A DNA stretch of 64,000 bases from Lachnospiraceae bacterium (GTDB lineage: Bacteria; Bacillota; Clostridia; Lachnospirales; Lachnospiraceae): the NCBI GenBank assembly GCA_024684085.1, contig JAIKXM010000005.1, positions 1-64,000 on the forward strand, in the 5' to 3' direction. Made by a program: the position numbers and the translations under genes. Every line of letters begins with the position of its first letter. The first letter of the stretch is position 1. Of this stretch, positions 9,200 through 59,513 are shown piece by piece. The notes under the pieces were generated by a model that worked only from the letters and a program-made list of their open reading frames with translations, did no database searches and was not told where the DNA came from.

Positions 9200-9307
9200 G
9201 TTAAGACCTCCTTTCCATTTTGTGCATACATGCGCTTCATCACTACACAAAGCGACCGTTTAACATTATAACACTAAGAAATAATGTTGTAAATAAGAAA
9301 TTCAATT

Positions 9308-9493
9308 ATTACTGTTCAAAGTCGCGTTTTTTGGACAGCAGCAGGTCAATATTTTCACAAGAAACGCCTAGTCAAACGTCGGTACTTAGCAAGGCAACGC
9401 CGAGCTTAGTATTCGCTACGCTCACATCGGAGCGAGAGCGCCGTTTCGGTGAATATATTGACCTGCTGCGTAAAGATACCCGTAAACAGTAAC
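9308..9493 (-). mobile_element. MITE-like element, copy 1 (variant-stem subfamily)
   Basis: A 186-bp non-coding element in the infA-rpmJ gap, reversed relative to copies at 43474, 50328 and 59196. The ends are ATTACTGTTC and AACAGTAAC. The inner stem is GCAGGTCAATATTTTCAC against GTGAATATATTGACCTGC, a different sequence from the other copies but still complementary. The core shares the GTACCGACGTTTGACTAGGCG type of sequence with copy 2. I see no target duplication, so it may be older. It ends 3 bp from the infA stop and is transcribed as part of the ribosomal mRNA. Confidence 0.85.
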
Positions 9494-22064: not shown

Positions 22065-22188
22065 GTACGACAAGCGGTGACTGTACACATTTCCGTGTGT
22101 GTCATATGATTGAACGCAATCAATCTCTGCCTTACCACGTTGTTTCTAAAAATGAATTTAGACTTTTCTTGTACAGTGACTTGTCGTC
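22065..22188 (-). ncRNA. Structured leader element of the S10 operon
   Basis: Within the roughly 255-nt untranslated leader before rpsJ, two segments about 80 nt apart are complementary: ACGACAAG followed by ACTGTAC (in 22170-22188) and GTACAGT followed by CTTGTCGT (in 22065-22088). This long-range pairing would close a large domain just upstream of the rpsJ ribosome-binding site. An autoregulatory or attenuation role is inferred. Confidence 0.5.
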
Positions 22189-22285
22189 AGTTTCTAACAT
22201 GACCTTCGCTCCACGGAAAACCTCCCGAGCCTCTCGACCCGACAGCAACCTCACGCTTCATCGCTATCATGTCACAGCACTTGAT

Positions 22286-41894: not shown

Positions 41895-42029
41895 GAAGTT
41901 CAATAAAATAAAAAGCCCTTCTGCCATAAGAACAGAAAGGACTTATCAATTCATGATTCCATTCCTCGGTAGGCGCATCAAAAGTCTTACTGACCCAAAG
42001 GTCAACCTACTGTCTTCGGCACAATTGAC
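41895..42029 (-). ncRNA. L10 leader (ribosomal protein autoregulatory RNA)
   Basis: The region between promoter and rplJ shows the layout of the bacterial L10 leader: an upstream structured part with the complementary ACTGACCC/AAAGGTCA and CGGTAGGC-type segments (about 41969-42020), then a terminator hairpin. Binding of the L10(L12)4 complex would control read-through. Identified by pattern and position. Confidence 0.75.
41914..41943 (-). terminator. Attenuator hairpin in the L10 leader
   Basis: Stem AGCCCTTCTG (41914-41923) against CAGAAAGGACT (41933-41943), allowing one G-U pair and a bulge. On the minus strand it is followed by TTTTTATTTTATTG, a good U-tract, about 50 bp upstream of rplJ. 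Confidence 0.8.
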
Positions 42030-42059
42030 ATCCTAACACACCAAACACACCGATGTCAA
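42030..42059 (-). promoter_or_regulatory. Promoter for rplJ-rplL
   Basis: On the minus strand TTGACA (42054-42059, consensus), an 18-bp spacer and TAGGAT (42030-42035). Transcription starts near 42023 and passes through the L10 leader. Confidence 0.75.
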
Positions 42060-42096: not shown

Positions 42097-43359
42097 TCAC
42101 TTTAACGTCACAACGCCGTCCTGATCGATATAGACATTCACAGAGATGCTTCTCATATACTGCAATATCCTATCCCGCTCCGTACCGGTTGCAAGTATGG
42201 TCTTACACCCTGACTGCACCGCAGGAATGAATCTTATCTGTGATCCGTCTTCCGTAAGGTTCACCTCCAGAAGACAGGTATCAAGAGTCTTACTGTTGAA
42301 CCAGTAATTACCCATACTGTATATAACCGGAACACCTTTGACATTATCCAGTCTCTGTAATATGTGCGGATGGTCACCTATGATAAGATCCGCACCGGAA
42401 GATGCAAGCTTACCGGCAAGATCGACCTGCGCCCAGTCAATATCTGTAACGGATTCGGTCCCCCAGTGAATATATGCGATCACATAGTCATACTCAGATT
42501 TCAGTTCCTCTACCTGCCGGCATATCGTATCGTCATACCAGCATCTGTAGGTTCCCGGACTGCTCTCAGTGGCGCCCTTAGTATCCGGATGATCCAAGCG
42601 TTCGATCTGAGTCGCGGAGACTATTGCCACTTTTCTATCTCCGCATACCACAGTGATCGGGTGAGATGCATCACTTATATCAAGTCCACCTCCGGTATAG
42701 ATGATACCTGCATCATTCAATACGGCACACGTATCTCTGAGACTCACCTCGCCGTAATCATAGCAATGATTGTTGGCAAGCGTTACGGCATCAACCCCCA
42801 TGTCACCATATATTGAAACGCTCTGCGGTTTTGCCCTGAATGTAAACTGCTTTCCTTCCAGCGGTTCGCCCCTATCGGAGAAAGTGAACTCATTATTGAC
42901 CATAAGGAAGCTGCTGTTATTCATAAGATCAATGACATCTGTGTCAAAAATCGCATCTATCCTTCGACCGGAATCATTATAGACTGCCATATTGGTATAG
43001 CCTTCGGCGAATGACACGTCACCGGTAAATAAAAGCGAATATTCGCCGTCTGCATCCGGAGATGCAACAAATGTATTGGAAGCGATATCCACAGGTACGA
43101 ATTCTCCGCCCACATCACCTGCACCATCGCTGCCGGAATTGCTTTCTTTATCACCAACCGCATCGGCTGTATCTTCACCTTTGCCGTATATGATATCCTC
43201 GAATATCACATCCTGAAGGACAACATCAGCCCCATCGCTGTTACCTTTAATATGTATAATAGCCAAGACAGAGAACCCTAATGTCAGTACAGCTACAAGT
43301 GTCAGAAAAAACACAAGCCATACTGCACTTCCTCGTCCTCCGGAGGTATTCCTACCCAT
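42097..43359 (-). CDS. CapA-family putative metallophosphatase, membrane-anchored
   Basis: Encodes 420 residues. One N-terminal membrane segment (about 13-35), an acidic Gly/Asp-rich linker, and a CapA/PGA_cap domain (about 105-400). Family motifs: LLFTGDVSFAEGY, ANNHCYDYG, GTESVTDIDWAQV, DLIIGDHPHILQ and VIYSMGNYWFN. CapA relatives act in poly-gamma-glutamate export/anchoring or as calcineurin-like phosphoesterases. The substrate here is unknown and no capB/capC are nearby. It separates rplA from rplJ, normally neighbours. Confidence 0.88.
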   Translation of the reverse strand: MGRNTSGGRGSAVWLVFFLTLVAVLTLGFSVLAIIHIKGNSDGADVVLQDVIFEDIIYGKGEDTADAVGDKESNSGSDGAGDVGGEFVPVDIASNTFVASPDADGEYSLLFTGDVSFAEGYTNMAVYNDSGRRIDAIFDTDVIDLMNNSSFLMVNNEFTFSDRGEPLEGKQFTFRAKPQSVSIYGDMGVDAVTLANNHCYDYGEVSLRDTCAVLNDAGIIYTGGGLDISDASHPITVVCGDRKVAIVSATQIERLDHPDTKGATESSPGTYRCWYDDTICRQVEELKSEYDYVIAYIHWGTESVTDIDWAQVDLAGKLASSGADLIIGDHPHILQRLDNVKGVPVIYSMGNYWFNSKTLDTCLLEVNLTEDGSQIRFIPAVQSGCKTILATGTERDRILQYMRSISVNVYIDQDGVVTLK

Positions 43360-43473: not shown

Positions 43474-43658
43474 GTTACTGTTCACAGGTATCTGTCCACT
43501 ACAGGAAATATATTCACCGAAACGGCGCTCTCGCTCCGATGTAAGCGTAACGGATACTAAGCTCGGCTTTGCCTCGCTAAGTACCGACGTTTGACTAGGC
43601 GTTTCTTGTGAATATATTTCCTTTAGCTATTCACATTAACACAAGTGTGAACAGTAAC
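43474..43658 (+). mobile_element. MITE-like element, copy 2
   Basis: 185 bp from GTTACTGTTCACA to TGTGAACAGTAAC. The inner stem is CTACAGGAAATATATTCAC against GTGAATATATTTCCTTTAG (one mismatch). The core carries the GTACCGACGTTTGACTAGGCG variant shared with copy 1. Flanking octamers AAATCCGC (43466-43473) and GAGTCCGC (43659-43666) match at 6 of 8 positions, suggesting a decayed target duplication. The 480-bp gap 43360-43839 holds this element and the hairpins at 43730-43816. Confidence 0.9.
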
Positions 43659-45980: not shown

Positions 45981-46046
45981 ATCTTCACCTCCACGCTATC
46001 GTGTTTATTGCATAAAAAAAAGACCTAAAACTTGTCTTGCCTTAAT

Positions 46047-46075
46047 AATGTACCATACAGTCTGACCTTAGTCAA
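46047..46075 (-). promoter_or_regulatory. Promoter for rpmG-secE-nusG
   Basis: On the minus strand TTGACT (46070-46075), 17-bp spacer, TACATT (46047-46052), about 70 bp upstream of rpmG. A repeat element ends 31 bp upstream of the -35 box. The 376-bp gap 45981-46356 holds this promoter and the element. Confidence 0.8.
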
Positions 46076-46106
46076 CATCTTTTTAACGAAGACGAACGGC
46101 TTTTTT

Positions 46107-46292
46107 GTTACTGTTCACACCCGTGTTTTTGTAAATAGCTACAGGAAATATATTCACTATAAACGCCTATGTGGGCGTCGGCACTTAGCGAGGCAAAGCG
46201 TAAGCTTAGTGTCCGCTACGCTCACATCGGAGCGAGAGCGCCGTTTCGGTGAATATATTTCCTGTAGCGGACAGACACCTGTGAACAGTAAC
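46107..46292 (-). mobile_element. MITE-like element, copy 3, with perfect target duplication
   Basis: 186 bp between GTTACTGTTCACA and TGTGAACAGTAAC, reversed relative to copies 2, 4 and 5. The inner stem CTACAGGAAATATATTCAC / GTGAATATATTTCCTGTAG is perfect. The flanks GCTTTTTT (46099-46106) and GCTTTTTT (46293-46300) are an exact 8-bp direct repeat, the mark of transposition. Confidence 0.95.
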
Positions 46293-46356
46293 GCTTTTTT
46301 AACAAAGACGGATGGCCAAGATCAGACTTTTTCCCGGGACCGGTTCTTTTTTGATA

Positions 46357-47031
46357 TCATCGCCTCAGGCTCTTTAAGTACTCTTTATGTTCATCGGACA
46401 CACGATAACTCTCTATCGCTTTCTGTATTGCCTTTCTGTGTGTCCACGGCTCAAGCCGACGCTCTCTTATATATATGACACTCTCATCATACCGTTTGGC
46501 CAGCGCCGTTGCAAAATACCAGGCAACCATCATCCTGATATAATAATCCTCGCCTTTCACATTCGAGACAAGCTCAAGGTATTCCTGATCAAAATCCTCT
46601 CCGAGATATTCGTTCATAAGCATCCGTATACCGAACCTTGCGGTATATACATGTTCAGATGCGATCCATTTTCTCACAAACGGAAGAAGCTTCTCATGAT
46701 ACTTAGCGAACACCCCGGGACTTGCCTGGTCGCACACCGGCCAGCAATCCACATAAGGCAGAAACTCTTCAACAGCCTTAACACACTCATCAAAATCCCT
46801 GATCATTGCTATCAGGAAAAAATGCACGAGATTCTCTTCATAATACTCATGCGGAAGTTCCCTAAGGAACGCTTCCGACTCATCAGTCCCCTTTATCTCT
46901 TTGGCGATCTTACGCAGATCGGGTGTCCTGACTCCCAGTATCTTCTCCTTGGGGATATTCGGCACAAGCTTACTCTGGAAATCTCTGTATCCTTCATCGC
47001 GGCAGGCGATCAGTCTCTCATATATTTTCAT
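46357..47031 (-). CDS. AlkD-like DNA alkylation repair protein
   Basis: Encodes 224 residues from MKIYERLIACRDEGYRDF (ATG 47029-47031). All-helical HEAT-like repeat protein of the AlkD family, DNA glycosylases that remove bulky or positively charged alkylated bases. Matching segments: KLVPNIPKEKILGVRTPDLR, LPYVDCWPVCDQ and WYFATALAKRYDE. Family catalytic residues (Trp and Asp) are plausibly in VDCWPVCD. It lies 65 bp beyond the flotillin gene. Confidence 0.88.
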   Translation of the reverse strand: MKIYERLIACRDEGYRDFQSKLVPNIPKEKILGVRTPDLRKIAKEIKGTDESEAFLRELPHEYYEENLVHFFLIAMIRDFDECVKAVEEFLPYVDCWPVCDQASPGVFAKYHEKLLPFVRKWIASEHVYTARFGIRMLMNEYLGEDFDQEYLELVSNVKGEDYYIRMMVAWYFATALAKRYDESVIYIRERRLEPWTHRKAIQKAIESYRVSDEHKEYLKSLRR

Positions 47032-50292: not shown

Positions 50293-50327
50293 GTAAGAAT
50301 TTTGCCGGGGTATCAGCACCTGACCGC

Positions 50328-50510
50328 GTTACTGTTCACAGTGTCTGTCCGCTACAGGAAATATATTCACCGAAACGGCGCTCTCGCTCCGATGTGAGCG
50401 TAGCGGACACTAAGCTCGGTTTTGCCTCGCTAAGTGCCGACGCCCACATAGGCGTTTGTTGTGAATATATTTCCTGTAGCTATTTACAAAACATGGGTGT
50501 GAACAGTAAC
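50328..50510 (+). mobile_element. MITE-like element, copy 4, with perfect target duplication
   Basis: 183 bp with termini GTTACTGTTCACA / TGTGAACAGTAAC and the perfect 19-bp inner stem. The flanks CTGACCGC (50320-50327) and CTGACCGC (50511-50518) are an exact 8-bp duplication. The last base of the right duplication is the first base of the tcdA-like stop codon. The 306-bp gap 50212-50517 holds this element and the promoter above. Confidence 0.95.
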
Positions 50511-50517
50511 CTGACCG

Positions 50518-51273
50518 CTAAATCTTCATCAGATCTTTTACAACTTCTCCGGCTATTATAAGTCCGGCCACCGACGGCACAAAGGCCACGCTTCCCGGCA
50601 CAGGCTTCGGGTGTAAAGTGACACGTGTGTCATCATCGCAGTCTGCATGCGATTCCCCCTCACTATCCGTTGATAACTGCTGCGGTCGTAAGGGAATCTC
50701 TTCGGAATATACCACCTTCAGTTTCTTAATTCCCCTCTTCCTCAATTCACGACGCATAACCTTGGCAAGCGGACACACATTGGTCTTGTATATATCGGCA
50801 ACCCTGAAGGCTGAAGCATCCAGCTTATTGCCGGCTCCCATGGAACTGATAACGGGTATCCCCAGTTCACTGCATCTGACGACAAGAGCGATCTTGGCCG
50901 TTACGGTATCTACGGCATCCACCACATAATCATATTCCTCAAAAGGGAAGTTGTCCGCATTGTCCGGCAGGAAGAAGGTCTTATAGAGCCTGACATCCAC
51001 ATCAGGATCGATATCCAGCATCCGCTCCTTCATCACTTCTACCTTGTCACGGCCGACAGTACTGTGAGTCGCTATGATCTGTCTGTTGATATTGCTCAGG
51101 CTGACCGTATCCCTGTCGATAAGGTCGAAACTGCCGACACCGCTCCGTACGAGCGCCTCGCATACATATCCGCCCACGCCACCTACTCCGAAGACAGCCA
51201 CACGGGCACTCCTAAGGCGTTCTACCGCCGATTCACCTATTAACAGCTTTGTTCTCTCGAATTGATCTGACAT
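50518..51273 (-). CDS. tcdA: tRNA threonylcarbamoyladenosine dehydratase (TcdA/CsdL family)
   Basis: Encodes 251 residues of the ThiF/E1-like family. ATP-binding GVGGVGGYVCEALVRSGVG near residues 29-47, then LIDRDTVSLSNINRQ and DAVDTVTAKIALV. The acidic insertion DSEGESHADCDDDT near 200-215 is variable. TcdA cyclises t6A37 of tRNA to ct6A in an ATP-dependent step. The overall length and GSVAFVPSVAGLIIAGEVVK ending fit TcdA better than MoeB or ThiF. Confidence 0.88.
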   Translation of the reverse strand: MSDQFERTKLLIGESAVERLRSARVAVFGVGGVGGYVCEALVRSGVGSFDLIDRDTVSLSNINRQIIATHSTVGRDKVEVMKERMLDIDPDVDVRLYKTFFLPDNADNFPFEEYDYVVDAVDTVTAKIALVVRCSELGIPVISSMGAGNKLDASAFRVADIYKTNVCPLAKVMRRELRKRGIKKLKVVYSEEIPLRPQQLSTDSEGESHADCDDDTRVTLHPKPVPGSVAFVPSVAGLIIAGEVVKDLMKI

Positions 51274-51960: not shown

Positions 51961-54900
51961 TTATTTCATTTCTGCTTTTTTGATAGTAAAGTTCGCGCTG
52001 AACACTCCTACATAATCGCCCTTACCCTTTAGGATGATCTTTGCTTTTCCGGGCGCATCATTATTGGCGTAATATATCTCGAAGTTCGATAATATCTCTT
52101 CGCCATTATTAATACTAACTCTTCCGATCTTAATGGTATAATCAACTCCCGGGGTCAGGGTTACTTTATCCCCCACGCCTCCGTGTACCTTATTCTTACC
52201 ACTCTTACTGAGTTGCACCTTGGCCTTGTTAACATCCGTTTTGCCGGTACCTTCCACTACATTGTAGCTTACATTCACTGAACCGGCATAATTCTTCGAA
52301 TACTTTGCCGTCACCGTTGCGATAATATCAGCCTCAGGTCCTGACAGAGTTCCCGCTCCAGAATAACTTACTGAATATTCATTGCTGTTCACGATCTGAT
52401 TATCGATCACGATATAAGGCTTGGGATTGTACTTGGCCTTCTTCTGGTATACCATATCACCGACCAGTATGTAATTGGAGTCGTCATCCTTAAGCGCACC
52501 CTCAAGTGTAGGCTTTTTGACCATATATGTCGCATCACCCTCATACTTGGCACCTTTATAATTGCCTTTAAATGTGATCTTATATTTGGCCTTCTCTCCA
52601 CCCTTCTTGTTACCGGAATATTTAACGCTGTAATCTTTTCCCTGAATCAGGTTCTCCGCGGTCTCATTTGCATATACCGTTATCGCCGGCTTCGCGCCGT
52701 CCTTATCATATTCCATTTCGGCAGGCGTACAAGTCACCGTAAAGGTAGCGGTCTTTAAAGGCTTGATCTTGAATGTCTTCTTAACTTTACCCTTATGACT
52801 TCCGGTACCGGTCACTAACAGTGTAACGGTTCCGGCATTAACATTATCGGAATAGCTTACCGTATACTCCGGTGTCTCTTCACCGGTTCCGTCGGTTACT
52901 ATAAGGTACTCATCTACAGTCTTCGGTGTTCCGTCATAGATGAATTCACTGGGTTTTTGATCAGAGAACTTCACCTTGATGGTTGCCTTCTTGGCTTCGG
53001 CCGAAGTCACTATTTCTATGGAATCTGTAATCTCCCCACAGAAATTACCACCTTCTTTGGCCCTGATATTGACAGTCCGATCTTCTTCATTCACTTCATA
53101 TGTATAATCTTTTTTATTAGTGAGCACTTTACCGTTATAAGTGACCACCGGTTTAATATCTTTAGCTTTACTACCGATCAGTCCGCCCACTTTGGCCTCG
53201 CCGATATCACGCCTATCTATAACAAAAGTTGATGTTATCGTACTTGAATAAACCCCTTTGCCCTTAACGGTAACGGTAGCTTCTCCCGCAGATTTGTTAT
53301 TCTTATACGAAACAGAATAATCAACACCTTCAATCAGTAGCTTACCGCTATCTCTGACAACGGCACCAGGCTTCAAGGCGTTTCCGGTATAGGTCATATG
53401 ATATACACCGGCTGCATCCTTAGCCAATTCACTGTCATCCAATTCAACCAAAATACCTTTTTTGAACAGTGTGAAAGTTATCTTACCCGTTTCCCCCGGA
53501 ATCTGTCCGGTAGCAGTCGCCACACTGTTATATGCCGTGGTAAACACAAGCTGTGCGCCGTAACCTCCCGGAATGAATGTCTCCCCTGAGGGTGTCATCA
53601 TAGATGACTCGATCGATGTCCCCAGATAACCTCTTGATGATTCAGGGTAAGTAATGATCTGATATCTCAACGCAATATCCTGAGTCTTCTTAAGATCCAC
53701 AAGACCGGTTACCCTATCTGTGTATGCCCCATCCGCATTCTTATTGGCCCACGCGCCTTCAAGAGTATCCGTATAGACCTTAAGTTCAACATACGGCAAT
53801 ATATACTCGGGAATAAGCTCGGCAGCTTTTGCAGTAACCTGATCGGCATCACCCGTGAAGGTTGTGAATATCTCTCCCGACGTGTCCATCCAGCTTCCGG
53901 TCCTGAACCGGCCGCTGCCGTCCTGATCCGAGACATTAACTCCGGCGAGTACAGTACCGTCTATAGTATACTTATCATCGACTTTGGTAAGCTCCACATT
54001 CTGTCCGTTAATTACCACGATAAGCTTATCTCCCGACGGTTCCGTATATTCTCCGACATTGATCTCTACGCTATCTGATGTAAGTGAGGTCCCTGCTGCC
54101 TTCACCCGGATGTCATATGTTCCGGGAGCAAGTCCGGTTATATTATCACCGGTAACGGCAGTCCATGTCATCTCCTCCGTTTTCTTATATTCCATGGTAG
54201 GATCCACACCCGTGATCATTCCGTTATTATTGCTTACGGTTGTACAATCCTGCTTCTGCAACATTCCTATTACAGCTGCTCTTGTAATGAATACTACCTT
54301 TTTCGCACTCTCCGAACCGTTCTCACCCTTTTGTGTGACAGTAAGAACACCGGGAACAACACCTGTCAGTTCCTGAGTGGTGCCCTCTGCGGTAAAATCT
54401 ACCGGGCTTAAGTTAATATCAGGTTGCTGTGCGGGTTCGTTCCCCTGCCTTCCATTCGTGAACGGTTCAATGGATACCGCATAATCTTCTCCGCTTATCA
54501 GTCCCGTCAAGGTGCCGCTATTATCCCCGGTTGCAACAAATGACACGCCTGTCATAATCTCAAGATTGAAGAAGTCTTCATTATTATCCGCTTCAACCGA
54601 ATTCTTAGTCCAATGTGCCGTATACGATCTGGCCCCTGTCTCATCGGCTTCTATTCTGTCCACACGCTTTGACTGACTGTCAAACCAACCGTCAAATGTA
54701 TAGCCTTCACGACTGACATCAACCGGAAGAACAGCGCCCGTTAAATAGAAGTACATGGACACATTATCATTACCTATACTGCCTCCGGCAGGATCCAGAG
54801 AAACATCATACGACGCAGGCTTATACAGAGCCCGAACTGTTACATCATGATCGGGCATAGTGAATATGGTAGTCGGATCAGTGTCATCCGCTGTTGTCAC

Positions 54901-57900
54901 ATCGGCACTGTCCCATCTGTCAAAGACATATCCGTTCTGAGCTTCACCTGCCGTAAGGGCAACGTTAACTCCGGAAACTGCAGTCCGGCCATCCTCACTG
55001 TCAGGAACGTCAGCCGTCACATTATCACTTGCAGTAATTGTATGCGGAGTATCATATTCTTCGAATATCGCGCGATAATCAGCATCACCCGTTACGGCTG
55101 TAAGTCTTGGTGACCATCCGGCGAATCTGTACGGAGTATCTTCCTCATTCATACACATAAGGGTTTCATTGCTCTCATACACAGGGAAGGTTCCGGCCTG
55201 CACTTCTTCCACAGTGCCCACGATCATCTCCTCTCCCGCATCATCATAAGAGATAAAGTTGACCGTATAGGTATTAGGAAGCCACTGTGCATACAATGTA
55301 ATATCCGTTGCAATATCGGCACTTACGCCGGCCGAATAAGATTCTCCGGTTCCGTCCGGTTTCGTATTCCATCCATCGAATGCATAGCCCGTTCTCGTAT
55401 ATGCACACTCCGGCAATACCGGAGCCGCGCCCTCAAAATCCTCCATCTGACCGGTTCCGCCATTACCTTCGAAACCAATTATGACAGATGTGTCTGAATC
55501 TTTCTGCCATACGGCATAGAGCACAAGATCACTTTCAACTGCTGCCTTATCGGCATAAGAGGTTCCGGTATTGTCAGCTGCGGTATTCCAGTTCTTGAAT
55601 ATATACCCTTCTCTGACAAACTCACATTTCGGAAGCTTTCCACCATTCTTAGCTATACTAACCGTCTGAACATCGGCCGTTGCGCCGCCCGGAATAAGTA
55701 CAACCGTATAAGCATCTTCCGATATAGCTTCTTCCCCTTCGTCAAAGCCGAGCTCATTACCTTCATCGGTCTCATTGCCTTCTCCCGCAACAACGCGGTC
55801 ACCGGCAATTTCCATCGTTGTGACAGGCTCGCCCGTCACGGCCATGGTCTCAAAACTGTCCGCTTCTTCCGTGAAGATCATCAACCTGCTGTTGTATTCG
55901 CCTCCGATAGAATCGCTGCTGAAAGAAGCCGTCACCTCACCGTTGCTGAAGGATTCCTCTATCACGGAATCCTTGCCTATGCCGGCAATCCCTCCCGCAT
56001 AAGTATGGGTCAGGGATATCGAACTAATACCGACATTGGCCTGATTATCAGACTCTGTGATATATCCGCTCTCTATACGTCCCGCTATTCCTCCTGCTCC
56101 GCATAAGATACCATCCGATGCGGCAGGCTCATTGACCGTAATCGCACCCTTATTAATACAATATTCAATGTACGAACCAAAAGCGACACCGACTATTCCA
56201 CCCGTATCGGCAGCCGATGAAGAAACAGCTTTTTCGTTGATACAGGCGCTGATGAATCCATGACTTGTTCCGACTATTCCGCCCGTTGCTTCATATCCTG
56301 TTCCGTTTATTACTCCATTATTGGTCGAGATATTGACAAAGCCTCCGAGATCAAGTCCCACAATACCTCCGGTCGACCGTGCATTATTGGTAATATTGCC
56401 ATTATTGGTACAGTCCTCGATAGTGGCGCCGTTACCAAGCGTTCCAAGAATACCACCCAGATTACTGCCGCCGTTCTGCAATCCGGCATTGTTGGTACAA
56501 TGGTAGATGAAGCCCCCTTTGTAACATATACCCGCTATACCGCCTGCATTAAGGCTGCCCTTTACTATACCCGAATTCTCACAATCTTTTATCGTAACCT
56601 TACGCACAGATCCGGCGATACCACCGATATCACTGCCGCTTCCGTTAATCTCTCCCTTATTGTCACAAGCTGTGATCGAAGCGGCGCAATCTCCGGTCAC
56701 ACCGCCCACATGCGAAGTACCGGTGACACTTCCGTCATTAATACATTTAACAGCCATTCCGAAGGTTGTACCGGCTATACCACCCGTATACTTCTTACCT
56801 GCGACCGTACCCTTATTATTGCAGTTAACGACAGTACTTCCGATGCGGCCCGCAACACCGCCCGTATATATGCTGCCGCTCTCCACACGACCGTTATTGA
56901 TGCAATCCGACATGGTTCCGCTAACTGCCCCGGCGATACCTCCGGTATATTTATCCCCGTCTGCGGTACCTTCGTTCCTGACATTGGCCCCATTAACACA
57001 GTCCGATACCCTGGCTGCATATCCGACCACTCCTCCTATATGACATACACTGCGATCTGTCTCACGTCTGCTGCCGACAACAGTACCCAAGCTCCCATTT
57101 ATGCAGCCGCTGACAGAGCGATCCGCCTTACCTGCAACTCCGCCTATATATTCGATACCTTCCACTTCGCCGCTGTTAGTACAATCGGCCACATCCAGTG
57201 AGGATCTGCCTGCAATGCCGCCGACATACTCAACACCCGTCACCGACGCATTATTACAACAATCCTTGATGCCCTTTATGCTTCCGGCTATACCGCCGAC
57301 ATAACGATCTCCGATAACAGGGCCATTGTTCTCAAGGCCGCTCAGGCTGCAATATGACAGACCAACGATTCCTCCTGTCATATCCCCGATGCCTTCGACT
57401 CTTCCCATGTTACTGCTGTAGATGATGCTGCCGTCTTCATCCACAAATCCGGCTATACCTCCCGTAATGTCATGTCCGGCTACGGAAGATACTGCTTCGG
57501 TTGTCGCGCATTCGGATATTGTTCCACCTTTTACCTCACCTGCTATACCACCGGTTAGCAGATTGCCCGCAACCGTTCCGGAATTGATACCGCCGTTCAA
57601 TGACGATCCGCTCAATCCACCGACGATACCTCCCGTGCATACATCGCCGTTTACCGTCCCTTCATTGGTAAGTCCCACAAGGATTCCGCCGGAACAATAA
57701 CCTACAACGCCTCCGTACATATTATTGGTATATCCGTGATAGAGCTTACCGTTGGCATGGTCAAGCACACCGTCGGCATGTGATTCGCCAATATAGCTTA
57801 CACTACCGCTGAAGTTACAGCCACTGACCATAACAGCCGAACCTGAAACTCCTTCATATGAACCGAACTTCCCGATATCACCATCCGATATCTCAGGCAC

Positions 57901-58935
57901 GCCATCTACCCAGCCGACAATACCGCCGACGCCCATTCCTACGCCCTTTACATCAGCATCGCTTCGACAATCTGTAATCATTCCGTTAAGCAGATCGGAG
58001 CCTGAGATACCGCCCACATAACTGTTACCGGTCACGATGCCCGCAAACGAACAATTCTCTATGATACCGTAATTGGTTCCGACTATACCTCCGACATGAT
58101 CTCCGCCATGCACTTCACCTTCTACATTAAGGTTCTTCACAATACCGGTCAGCATACCGAACAGACCCTGATGATCAGCTGTTCCGGCATTAATATTAAG
58201 ACCGCTTATGGTATGGCCGTCACCGTCCAACACACCGTCAAAGGGAATAGATCCCGTACAGCCGGCAGGCATGTCATATGATATATCATCATAAGGAAGA
58301 TCCGTCAGATCTATATCATTGACAAGCTTAAAATTCACTCCATGATATGAGAGCCCTTCATTAACGTTATATGCCAGTTGAAACATCTGAAATCCGTTAG
58401 ATATCTCATACGGAATATCATCCGTACCTTCTCCGGGCAATTCGAATCCCGCATATATACCGTCACTGTATACGGCCATCTCACCGCTTACCGACAGTTC
58501 GGTACTGTCATCTGACAATTCCTCCGCCCTGGCAGTGGTATCCTCTTCAGTAATATCTTCTGCGGTGATATCCTCAACAGTAATATCCTCAACAGTAATA
58601 TCCTCAACAGTAATATCCTCTTCAGTGATATCTTCGGCAGTGATATCTTCTTCATTGTTATCCTCGGTGTCGATATCCTCTGCGATGATATCTTCTTCGG
58701 TGTTGATATCCTCTGTGGCGATATCCTCTTTACTAACATCCCCTTTGTCGATCTCTTTCTCCGGAATATTCTCCTTAGCTTCCCTCATTCCCGAAGTTTG
58801 ACTGATAATCCCTTCAGCATTATCGCTACCCACTTTGGCCGCATACGCTTCCGCAGGCATGGTACTTACCAACAAGATAAGACTTAGCAAAAGTGCCATA
58901 GACTTCATGAATCTGTTCTTCATTCTGCGATCCAT
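51961..58935 (-). CDS. Giant secreted repeat protein with GLUG, InlB-type and MBG-like domains
   Basis: Encodes 2,324 residues from ATG 58933-58935 (AGGAGG upstream). Signal peptide 1-33 (LLLSLILLVSTMPAEAYA). An acidic low-complexity stretch of EDIT(V/A/E) pentads spans about 60-130. Then come 24 GLUG-like repeats of the GG(I/V)xG type (about 250-1030), expected to fold as a beta-solenoid. InlB B-type repeats with GYIFKNWNT, GYAFDGWNT and GYTFDGWFD follow (about 1090-1500). The C-terminal 500 residues hold MBG/Ig-like repeats with YSGNKKGG and YKNNKSAGEATVTVKG. No LPXTG motif or membrane anchor is seen, so it is released or wall-bound by other means. An adhesin or matrix role is inferred. Confidence 0.88.
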   Translation of the reverse strand: MDRRMKNRFMKSMALLLSLILLVSTMPAEAYAAKVGSDNAEGIISQTSGMREAKENIPEKEIDKGDVSKEDIATEDINTEEDIIAEDIDTEDNNEEDITAEDITEEDITVEDITVEDITVEDITAEDITEEDTTARAEELSDDSTELSVSGEMAVYSDGIYAGFELPGEGTDDIPYEISNGFQMFQLAYNVNEGLSYHGVNFKLVNDIDLTDLPYDDISYDMPAGCTGSIPFDGVLDGDGHTISGLNINAGTADHQGLFGMLTGIVKNLNVEGEVHGGDHVGGIVGTNYGIIENCSFAGIVTGNSYVGGISGSDLLNGMITDCRSDADVKGVGMGVGGIVGWVDGVPEISDGDIGKFGSYEGVSGSAVMVSGCNFSGSVSYIGESHADGVLDHANGKLYHGYTNNMYGGVVGYCSGGILVGLTNEGTVNGDVCTGGIVGGLSGSSLNGGINSGTVAGNLLTGGIAGEVKGGTISECATTEAVSSVAGHDITGGIAGFVDEDGSIIYSSNMGRVEGIGDMTGGIVGLSYCSLSGLENNGPVIGDRYVGGIAGSIKGIKDCCNNASVTGVEYVGGIAGRSSLDVADCTNSGEVEGIEYIGGVAGKADRSVSGCINGSLGTVVGSRRETDRSVCHIGGVVGYAARVSDCVNGANVRNEGTADGDKYTGGIAGAVSGTMSDCINNGRVESGSIYTGGVAGRIGSTVVNCNNKGTVAGKKYTGGIAGTTFGMAVKCINDGSVTGTSHVGGVTGDCAASITACDNKGEINGSGSDIGGIAGSVRKVTIKDCENSGIVKGSLNAGGIAGICYKGGFIYHCTNNAGLQNGGSNLGGILGTLGNGATIEDCTNNGNITNNARSTGGIVGLDLGGFVNISTNNGVINGTGYEATGGIVGTSHGFISACINEKAVSSSAADTGGIVGVAFGSYIEYCINKGAITVNEPAASDGILCGAGGIAGRIESGYITESDNQANVGISSISLTHTYAGGIAGIGKDSVIEESFSNGEVTASFSSDSIGGEYNSRLMIFTEEADSFETMAVTGEPVTTMEIAGDRVVAGEGNETDEGNELGFDEGEEAISEDAYTVVLIPGGATADVQTVSIAKNGGKLPKCEFVREGYIFKNWNTAADNTGTSYADKAAVESDLVLYAVWQKDSDTSVIIGFEGNGGTGQMEDFEGAAPVLPECAYTRTGYAFDGWNTKPDGTGESYSAGVSADIATDITLYAQWLPNTYTVNFISYDDAGEEMIVGTVEEVQAGTFPVYESNETLMCMNEEDTPYRFAGWSPRLTAVTGDADYRAIFEEYDTPHTITASDNVTADVPDSEDGRTAVSGVNVALTAGEAQNGYVFDRWDSADVTTADDTDPTTIFTMPDHDVTVRALYKPASYDVSLDPAGGSIGNDNVSMYFYLTGAVLPVDVSREGYTFDGWFDSQSKRVDRIEADETGARSYTAHWTKNSVEADNNEDFFNLEIMTGVSFVATGDNSGTLTGLISGEDYAVSIEPFTNGRQGNEPAQQPDINLSPVDFTAEGTTQELTGVVPGVLTVTQKGENGSESAKKVVFITRAAVIGMLQKQDCTTVSNNNGMITGVDPTMEYKKTEEMTWTAVTGDNITGLAPGTYDIRVKAAGTSLTSDSVEINVGEYTEPSGDKLIVVINGQNVELTKVDDKYTIDGTVLAGVNVSDQDGSGRFRTGSWMDTSGEIFTTFTGDADQVTAKAAELIPEYILPYVELKVYTDTLEGAWANKNADGAYTDRVTGLVDLKKTQDIALRYQIITYPESSRGYLGTSIESSMMTPSGETFIPGGYGAQLVFTTAYNSVATATGQIPGETGKITFTLFKKGILVELDDSELAKDAAGVYHMTYTGNALKPGAVVRDSGKLLIEGVDYSVSYKNNKSAGEATVTVKGKGVYSSTITSTFVIDRRDIGEAKVGGLIGSKAKDIKPVVTYNGKVLTNKKDYTYEVNEEDRTVNIRAKEGGNFCGEITDSIEIVTSAEAKKATIKVKFSDQKPSEFIYDGTPKTVDEYLIVTDGTGEETPEYTVSYSDNVNAGTVTLLVTGTGSHKGKVKKTFKIKPLKTATFTVTCTPAEMEYDKDGAKPAITVYANETAENLIQGKDYSVKYSGNKKGGEKAKYKITFKGNYKGAKYEGDATYMVKKPTLEGALKDDDSNYILVGDMVYQKKAKYNPKPYIVIDNQIVNSNEYSVSYSGAGTLSGPEADIIATVTAKYSKNYAGSVNVSYNVVEGTGKTDVNKAKVQLSKSGKNKVHGGVGDKVTLTPGVDYTIKIGRVSINNGEEILSNFEIYYANNDAPGKAKIILKGKGDYVGVFSANFTIKKAEMK
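58546..58725 (-). repeat. 15-bp tandem repeats in the N-terminal region of the giant protein
   Basis: Units such as GTAATATCCTCAACA recur with 15-bp period (three near-identical in a row at about 58570-58620) and encode acidic pentads Glu-Asp-Ile-Thr-Val/Ala. Copy number may vary by slippage without frameshift. Confidence 0.85.
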
Positions 58936-59008
58936 CTCAATTCCTCCTCTACATGACCGTTTGAACCTTTTCGCTCGATTTATATTTATCAATGATAGAA
59001 CCAAATCA

Positions 59009-59089: not shown

Positions 59090-59195
59090 CAGCAATTCCT
59101 TCCAAATATCAGGTACAACATTATATTATTATACCATTACAGAATTATGATATAAAGACAATTCAGAAACAGCAACGGAAACCGACACTATCCGC

Positions 59196-59380
59196 GTTAC
59201 TGTTCACAGGTGTCTGTCCGCTACAGGAAATATATTCACTGAAACGGCGCTCTCGCTCCGATGTGAGCGTAGCGGACACTAAGCTCGGCTTTGCCTCGCT
59301 AAGTGCCGACGCCCACATAGGCGTTTCTTGTGAATATATTTCCTGTAGCTATTTACAAAAACACGGGTGCGAACAGTAAC
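59196..59380 (+). mobile_element. MITE-like element, copy 5
   Basis: 185 bp with termini GTTACTGTTCACA / TGCGAACAGTAAC and the perfect 19-bp inner stem CTACAGGAAATATATTCAC / GTGAATATATTTCCTGTAG. Flanking octamers CTATCCGC (59188-59195) and CTGTCCGC (59381-59388) match at 7 of 8 positions, a probable target duplication with one later change. Confidence 0.93.
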
Positions 59381-59513
59381 CTGTCCGCTTTTTGGCCATA
59401 CGCAACGGTCTCTGCATATATACTCCGCCACAACTTAAGTATTTACATCCGCATACTTCAAACATATAATAGGAGCATCGCCGACCATTGCAATAATACG
59501 AGGTTCTTATAAT

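Follow-up and report, generated by a model that had tools for sequence, protein, structure and literature searches.

The closest described element that we found is ISDge4, which belongs to the ISBst12 group of the IS66 family. In the excerpt of its description at hand (PMC12898284), ISDge4 has terminal inverted repeats (TIRs) GTGACTACTCAGCA/GTAACTGCTCAGCA, an 8-bp repeat (CCTCGATG) and a single transposase gene; transposition of the element, with its 8-bp repeat, is reported. Here we analysed a short, geneless element that occurs in five copies in one window (a 64,000-nucleotide stretch of a Lachnospiraceae genome, contig C29 in our numbering), together with longer elements of related bacteria that are its likely partners. 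Set against what the excerpt gives, the partners resemble ISDge4 in the sequence of their ends (GTNACTN.TCA), in the duplication of 8 bp and in a transposase of the IS66 family (PF03050). The partners examined differ in that they are longer (~2.1–2.3 kb), end in GTTACTGTTCAC or a close variant, and carry, ahead of the transposase, an ORF of ~100 aa that belongs to no clear family. The window element has no gene at all.

REP sequences and REPINs are present as many intergenic structured copies, often in inverted pairs, and REP sequences are read by RAYT. The ~105-nt core of the window element likewise has many intergenic structured copies, often in inverted pairs, but its fold is much larger and the window element has TIRs and 8-bp duplications. 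Correia elements are MITEs with long inverted repeats that fold in transcripts. The portion of the streptococcal repeat paper available mentions that Correia elements are cleaved by RNase III (PMC3049150). The window element is like them in being a MITE with long inverted repeats, and differs in having an inner fold conserved across genera. In the same portion, BOX, RUP and SPRITE are intergenic MITE-like repeats of pneumococcus and other streptococci with a predicted RNA fold, and mobilisation by a similar-ended insertion sequence (IS) is proposed for BOX and RUP (PMC3049150). As far as that portion goes, the window element matches them as an intergenic MITE-like repeat with a predicted RNA fold, but its core shows covariation across genera, has a GNRA hairpin, occurs in 100 of 249 sampled genera and is found within more than one kind of ends.

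A MITE Family with 8-bp Target Duplications

The initial annotation of the window had described five copies of a 185-bp element with inverted termini and a GC-rich core, and had taken them for a MITE-like family with 8-bp duplications. All five copies were recovered where it had placed them, with the inverted termini (Table 1). The length of 185 bp applied to two copies (43474 and 59196) and not to the others, the range being 183–186 bp. The exact duplications that it read at the 46107 and 50328 copies (GCTTTTTT and CTGACCGC, respectively) are indeed there on both sides, and the GC-rich core is present in the repeat but is more than a mere part of it, as it represents a conserved fold (see below).

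Table 1. Positions of the MITE copies, of the duplications flanking copy 3 and of the structured cores in the window.
Feature	Coordinates	Strand	Details
MITE copy 1	9308-9493	+	186 bp, diverged; 2 mismatches per TIR
MITE copy 2	43474-43658	-	185 bp; flanking 8-mers AAATCCGC/GAGTCCGC, 6/8 match
MITE copy 3	46107-46292	+	186 bp; TIRs GTTACTGTTCACA at 46107-46119 and 46280-46292
Copy 3, left 8-bp target duplication	46099-46106		GCTTTTTT, exact
Copy 3, right 8-bp target duplication	46293-46300		GCTTTTTT, exact
MITE copy 4	50328-50510	-	183 bp; exact CTGACCGC at 50320-50327 and 50511-50518
MITE copy 5	59196-59380	-	185 bp; CTATCCGC/CTGTCCGC (7/8) at 59188-59195 and 59381-59388
Core in copy 1	9351-9456	+	model R1, 103.5 bits
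Core in copy 2	43510-43615	-	model R1, 109.6 bits
Core in copy 3	46150-46256	+	model R1, 105.4 bits
Core in copy 4	50363-50468	-	model R1, 107.9 bits
Core in copy 5	59232-59337	-	model R1, 114.2 bits

The element is short, has 13-bp TIRs and is taken as non-coding: mechanically called ORFs of at least 90 aa overlap copies 1 and 3 (9220-9492 and 46032-46478), neither is contained in the element, and both are taken as chance. Copies 2, 4 and 5 lie in the opposite orientation to copies 1 and 3. Fifteen matches to GTTACTGTTCACA with up to two mismatches were counted in the window against 1.17 expected, a number reached in 0 of 100 shuffles. The inner stem of copy 1 differs from that of the other copies, yet it is palindromic (GCAGCAGGTCAATATT...), and by eye this copy had no flanking duplication. 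The flanks of copy 3 also lie within an older tandem repeat of ~22 bp (TTTTTAACRAAGACG..., by eye), so that their resemblance there extends beyond 8 bp.

The window contains several other features. Rfam models matched an S10-Clostridia leader (22181-22269, minus strand) and an L10 ribosomal protein leader (41900-42037, minus strand), and a PGA_cap gene (42097-43359) separates the L10 leader from the L11 gene. An ORF of 2347 aa on the minus strand (51961-59004), with List_Bact_rpt and InlB B-repeat-like domains, probably encodes a large surface protein.

In the host genome (2.36 Mb in 46 contigs, 85.7% complete) the MITE was found in at least 40 places and in both orientations, 40 being those scored among 73 first-look candidates; the 9308 copy is absent from these 40. 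Since 11 of the 40 places are at contig ends, where one copy may appear twice, the number of distinct copies is ~35 or more. The 13-base end motif, allowing one mismatch, was present 93 times genome-wide compared to three times for a reversed control. The genome-wide density is ~1 copy per 60 kb, which makes the window richer than average.

Ends were paired within the stretches examined, with up to three mismatches per pair, giving 36 elements of 36–325 bp, 35 of which could be evaluated (the 9308 copy, whose ends total four mismatches, is outside this count). Collection of their flanks confirmed the peak at 8 bp: 17 of the 35 pairs had exact 8-bp duplications and five more matched at 7/8 (22/35 at 7/8 or better), while exact matches at a length of 7 were seen in 1/35 and at a length of 9 in 0/35. 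Mispaired flanks reached 7/8 in at most 4/35 over 2000 shuffles. All 13 pairs with fewer matches were kept in the count; at least two of them are one-base register shifts and the others are old or chance pairs. Past the 8 bp, identity between the flanks of different copies had a mean of 26–27% and a maximum of 59%, as expected of separate insertions and not of a segmental duplication. Duplication of a larger stretch instead of transposition could appeal to the short tandem repeat around the 46107 copy, but it is refuted by the comparison of the 35 end pairs, in which flanks beyond 8 bp are unrelated and exact repeats peak at 8 bp (17/35).

When the flanks of each copy were joined, a spanning ORF resulted in 1 of 23 copies versus 403 of 500 random window positions, a rough control in that its positions come from one 64-kb window and its ORFs are mechanical. 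For that test 34 copies were tried (two very short pairs were left out and the 9308 copy was added), of which 23 had sufficient flank. Short forms of 52, 56, 60, 81, 81 and 121 bp have exact 8-bp duplications, and one of 69 bp has 7/8; these forms retain both ends but are without most or all of the core. Slippage at AATATATT, a sequence repeated in both inner arms, could have produced the 81-bp form. In a 325-bp copy elsewhere in the genome (C4:53504-53828), one inner arm is swapped for ~141 bp of unrelated, hairpin-rich sequence, which recurs at C31:1-160.

A search of relatives found a full-length copy in none of 60 genomes, 19 of them from the same genus. At the one site tested, that of the 46107 copy, the left side aligns up to ~46084 in two relatives (G013 and G003), and the right neighbour was not found in those relatives' loci, so that no clean orthologous empty site emerged. 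The 185-bp element had no match in plasmid and phage records, nor had the exact 19-base end in viral contigs. These data firmly identify the element as a MITE family, non-autonomous and flanked by target duplications of 8 bp, as was first proposed.

IS66-Type Elements with Similar Ends

That no related transposase was visible, as the initial annotation stated, is true of the host genome, in which (at 85.7% completeness) we found neither an IS66 element nor a match to the partner transposase. Relatives, however, carry full-length IS66-type elements whose ends are of the MITE kind; none was found in the host. An IS256 partner was rejected as PF00872 had no match in the host genome.

PF03050 is present in 36 of 116 genomes, and loci with weak matches to this family bear the MITE-type end. 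The elements at such loci in relatives are divergent IS66-type (ISBst12-like) ISs of ~2.2 kb with ends of the MITE kind, many with exact 8-bp duplications. One in the same genus as the host (G010; L147/L149) is 2134 bp long and has GTTACTGTTCACTGGTAAGCCAAAT at both ends, with 14/14 end bases matching and an adjoining repeat of 7 bp, not 8. Others of 2207 bp (G025; L144/L150) and 2308 bp (G094; L151, ends GTTACTTTTCACGG) are without a duplication. In G081 two contigs, which we take to carry the parts of a single element, have the left end GTTACTGTTCACACCCG and the right end GTTACTGTTCACAGG, with ATTGTATT outside both. The MITE ends read CACACCCG and CACAGG, the same left/right asymmetry as in G081, and the GNRA strand of the core, like the G081 transposase gene, points from the CCC end towards the GG end.

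The scan of named genomes gave at least 155 confirmed relatives, of which 80 were kept and 51 were tested for ends: the 41 closest of those kept, chiefly records of Lachnospiraceae but also a few of other Clostridia and further groups, and ten picked among the 39 more distant ones. Exact 8-bp duplications were present in 10 of the 41 closest among the loci kept and in 7 of the 10 distant ones (two genomes give two each), counts that lean to the expected answer as the test took only ends starting GT.

The transposases of L147 and L144 matched PF03050 at 66.6 and 71.8 bits, above the cut-off of 23.1. Against NCBIfam NF033517 the partner transposase scored 158.2 bits, under the equivalog cut-off of 180, which places it in a divergent branch. 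An ORF of ~105 aa precedes the transposase in the two best-examined partner elements, and one of 100 aa does so in L151; because of this extra ORF, where the group has a single one, we call the elements ISBst12-like and not filed members. None of the 41 IS-bearing loci that were searched contained the core. An IS66-type transposase of the kind in the relatives most likely moved the window copies, and taken jointly, MITE status and an IS66-type partner are very probable.

A Conserved Fold in the Core

One strand of the element forms a long hairpin with a branched core of ~105 nt. The fixed shape of the core comprises an arm stem, which is variable, and a branched junction; its long arm contains a conserved bulge of two bases, a U.U mismatch and tandem G.A, and its short hairpin is capped by a GNRA loop.

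Comparison of copies from the host genome and from another genus found through its match to the core (G035) in alignment A2 revealed double changes at 23 of 47 pairs. The covariation score was 0.447, while shuffling gave 0.179 and sliding no more than 0.101; among five measures, that of further pair types was not above shuffles (324/500). Alignment A6, which contains 30 matches from 27 genomes and leans to the covariance model to which it was fitted, has double changes at 27 of 32 pairs and a score of 0.588 (0.200 shuffled, at most 0.125 slid). A third alignment, A7, holds 97 distinct gap-free rows from eight genomes; it overlaps A6 and was likewise fitted to the model.

The GNRA loop is present in 30/30 rows of A6 and 97/97 of A7, overlapping sets matched to a model that was itself built from rows carrying the loop. 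Six types occur (GAGA, GAAA, GCAA, GGAA, GGGA, and GCGA), and 4/30 rows of A6 and 11/97 of A7 have U-A in place of C-G as the closing pair, with one C.A in A7. In the GNRA register the small hairpin has only Watson-Crick changes in A6. With the mis-registered hairpin and one shifted pair excluded, G.U exceeded A.C by 18:10 in A6 (p = 0.18) and by 29:8 in A7 (p = 0.0008). A far stronger strand asymmetry (131 versus 23 in A7, without one shifted pair) was rejected as coming largely from the mis-registered hairpin. The outer arms had no strand bias (54:41, p = 0.22). Their sequence turns over quickly while pairing is retained, a pattern suggestive of either selection on pairing or symmetric repair.

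At the gathering threshold, Rfam had no match at the core, either in the window or in 20 core-bearing loci, and a permissive search with two cores gave best E-values of 3.8 and 1.6. In the open-access papers searched we recognised neither the MITE nor the fold. Overall, the covariation and the constancy of the loop indicate that the core is almost certainly a conserved fold.

Distribution and Surroundings of the Core

A covariance model, R1, built from 15 sequences, detected the core in 101 of 250 Lachnospiraceae genomes, sampled at about one per genus, or 100 of 249 genera (~40%). The median was six hits per core-bearing genome among up to 15 candidates scored in each; 18 genomes had 15 or more hits and 15 had a single hit. 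In a class-wide draw with stricter filters (E ≤ 1e-4) the core was present in 7 of 291 genomes, all Lachnospiraceae; the 291 include that family, and the share of other families was not itemised. The 3.3-Mb genome G035 had 975 first-look candidates for a related core, of which 40/40 scored were matches, and its core copies possibly number in the hundreds.

At least two genera have the core in IS66-ended MITEs, and elsewhere its surroundings are different. In G094, ends like GTTACT[GT]TT[CT]A[TC] (up to three mismatches each) are located around 13 of 15 cores, 12 at matching distance, and exact 8-bp duplications flank 3 of 15 with one more at 7/8, these counts having no separate control. The same genome also has an IS66-type element with ends GTTACTTTTCACGG. 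In G035 such ends with a 7/8 duplication were seen at 1 of 39 copies (L048). A scan for ends and 8-bp duplications around cores elsewhere gave 25 of 162 candidates versus 27 of 484 when mispaired, and hence only G094 is convincing and L048 of G035 is suggestive. No IS66-type ends were found around the core in G129, G123, G174, G149, G090, G270 and G243.

The copies in G090 have different outer repeats, TTTAAAAATCTC and GCGAAACTC. In four composite copies of that genome (L305, L307, L308, and L391) the core and the outer blocks are kept, while the arms of ~15 bp are different perfect or near-perfect palindromes and the spacers differ too, a symmetric hypervariability between conserved blocks. 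Core pairs less than 600 bp apart were divergent in 15 of the 16 cases among the pairs listed, the exception being a tandem pair at G178:C131. Such close pairs were observed at L322, L313, L345, L352, L355, L305, L307, L308, L391, L340, L339, L244, and L252, and on contigs G421:C28, G421:C3 and G178:C131. Three loci of G016 (L036, L039, and L031) contain repeated lone 30-bp palindromes, GCACTTAGCGAGGCGAAGTCGAGCTTAGTGC, which are like one arm of the core. The exact core pattern had no match in viral contigs, a search that is insensitive as the pattern fits only 9 of 89 core-bearing loci.

Possible Roles of the Core

Based on crude ORF calls, 108 of 124 core copies are intergenic and 78 of the 124 lie between genes of the same direction, 36 reading with those genes and 42 against them. 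Copies read in the sense direction are not better conserved. This random orientation and the lack of better conservation speak against a simple function as read-through RNA, and also against a leader role at particular genes. The GNRA loop, a bulge and mismatches that stay constant, and a modest excess of G.U point to a folded single strand, with RNA likelier than DNA. We lean, by a little, towards a role of the core as RNA. RNA rather than single-stranded DNA would be its working form, and the core would serve the element rather than the host.

GNRA-like hairpins are very stable in DNA also. A rather unlikely alternative is that the core acts as a folded single DNA strand, which, for example, a single-strand transposase or a repair enzyme would read, much as RAYT reads REP sequences, and which would later have lodged in MITEs. 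The many intergenic copies with random orientation to genes, the divergence of close pairs (15/16 among those listed) and the few G.U pairs in the stems are in keeping with this. The six GNRA types, however, always have a purine in the third place, which suggests RNA, and the duplications in the window genome and around the G094 copies are of the kind made by DDE-type insertion.

It is also conceivable, though improbable, that the element is an ordinary IS66-type MITE with a passive inside and that the core is an inherited long palindrome without function. MITEs often form long hairpins, the TIRs and duplications suffice to explain mobility, and the outer arms have no strand bias. The nearly coreless short forms (52–121 bp) have exact 8-bp duplications (7/8 for that of 69 bp), but these could be deletions that followed insertion. 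A passive palindrome is also difficult to reconcile with the constancy of the unpaired bases, the bulge of two bases, the U.U mismatch and the GNRA loop (27 genomes in A6, eight in A7) or with a fold that can be recognised in 100 of the 249 genera sampled.

That the core is a leader, riboswitch or terminator, acting as a cis-regulatory RNA ahead of particular genes, is very improbable: some copies were seen by eye within ~50–100 nt upstream of an RBS-like site on the same strand (e.g., L261, L265, L266, and L267), but orientation to the flanking genes is random, and the eight proteins scanned next to window copies 2–5 belong to unrelated families or to none. A leader was rejected on the orientation count, 36 with versus 42 against.

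A Model for the Element

The explanation that best joins the TIRs, 8-bp duplications, like-ended partners, covariation, GNRA conservation and spread observed here is as follows. An autonomous IS of ~2.2 kb would supply a DDE transposase in trans, which would recognise the ends GTTACTGTTCACA, insert the element between genes and duplicate 8 bp. Inside the ends are inverted arms and the ~105-nt core, which would be an independent Lachnospiraceae module that rides IS66-ended MITEs in some genera and has other surroundings elsewhere, and which most likely acts as a structured RNA once the element is transcribed. That the element is an IS66-type MITE with an independent core module, most likely acting as RNA, is in our estimation a probable statement as a whole. 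By it an orphan MITE gains a likely transposase family, and its spread is explained.

More tentatively, the core could represent an undescribed class of structured RNA, confined to Lachnospiraceae among the genomes searched, present in ~40% of the sampled genera of that family and spreading through MITEs with different ends. On that reading it would be a mobile RNA module independent of any single transposon family, and its carrier may benefit in transposition or tolerance. If instead the core is passive, the persistent palindromy of the arms despite the turnover of their sequence is itself unexplained. A conserved fold that had no match in our Rfam searches is repeated in the genomes of a family that is common in the gut and rumen. 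If the core is a working RNA, many of the copies between genes may affect transcripts or transposition in these bacteria.
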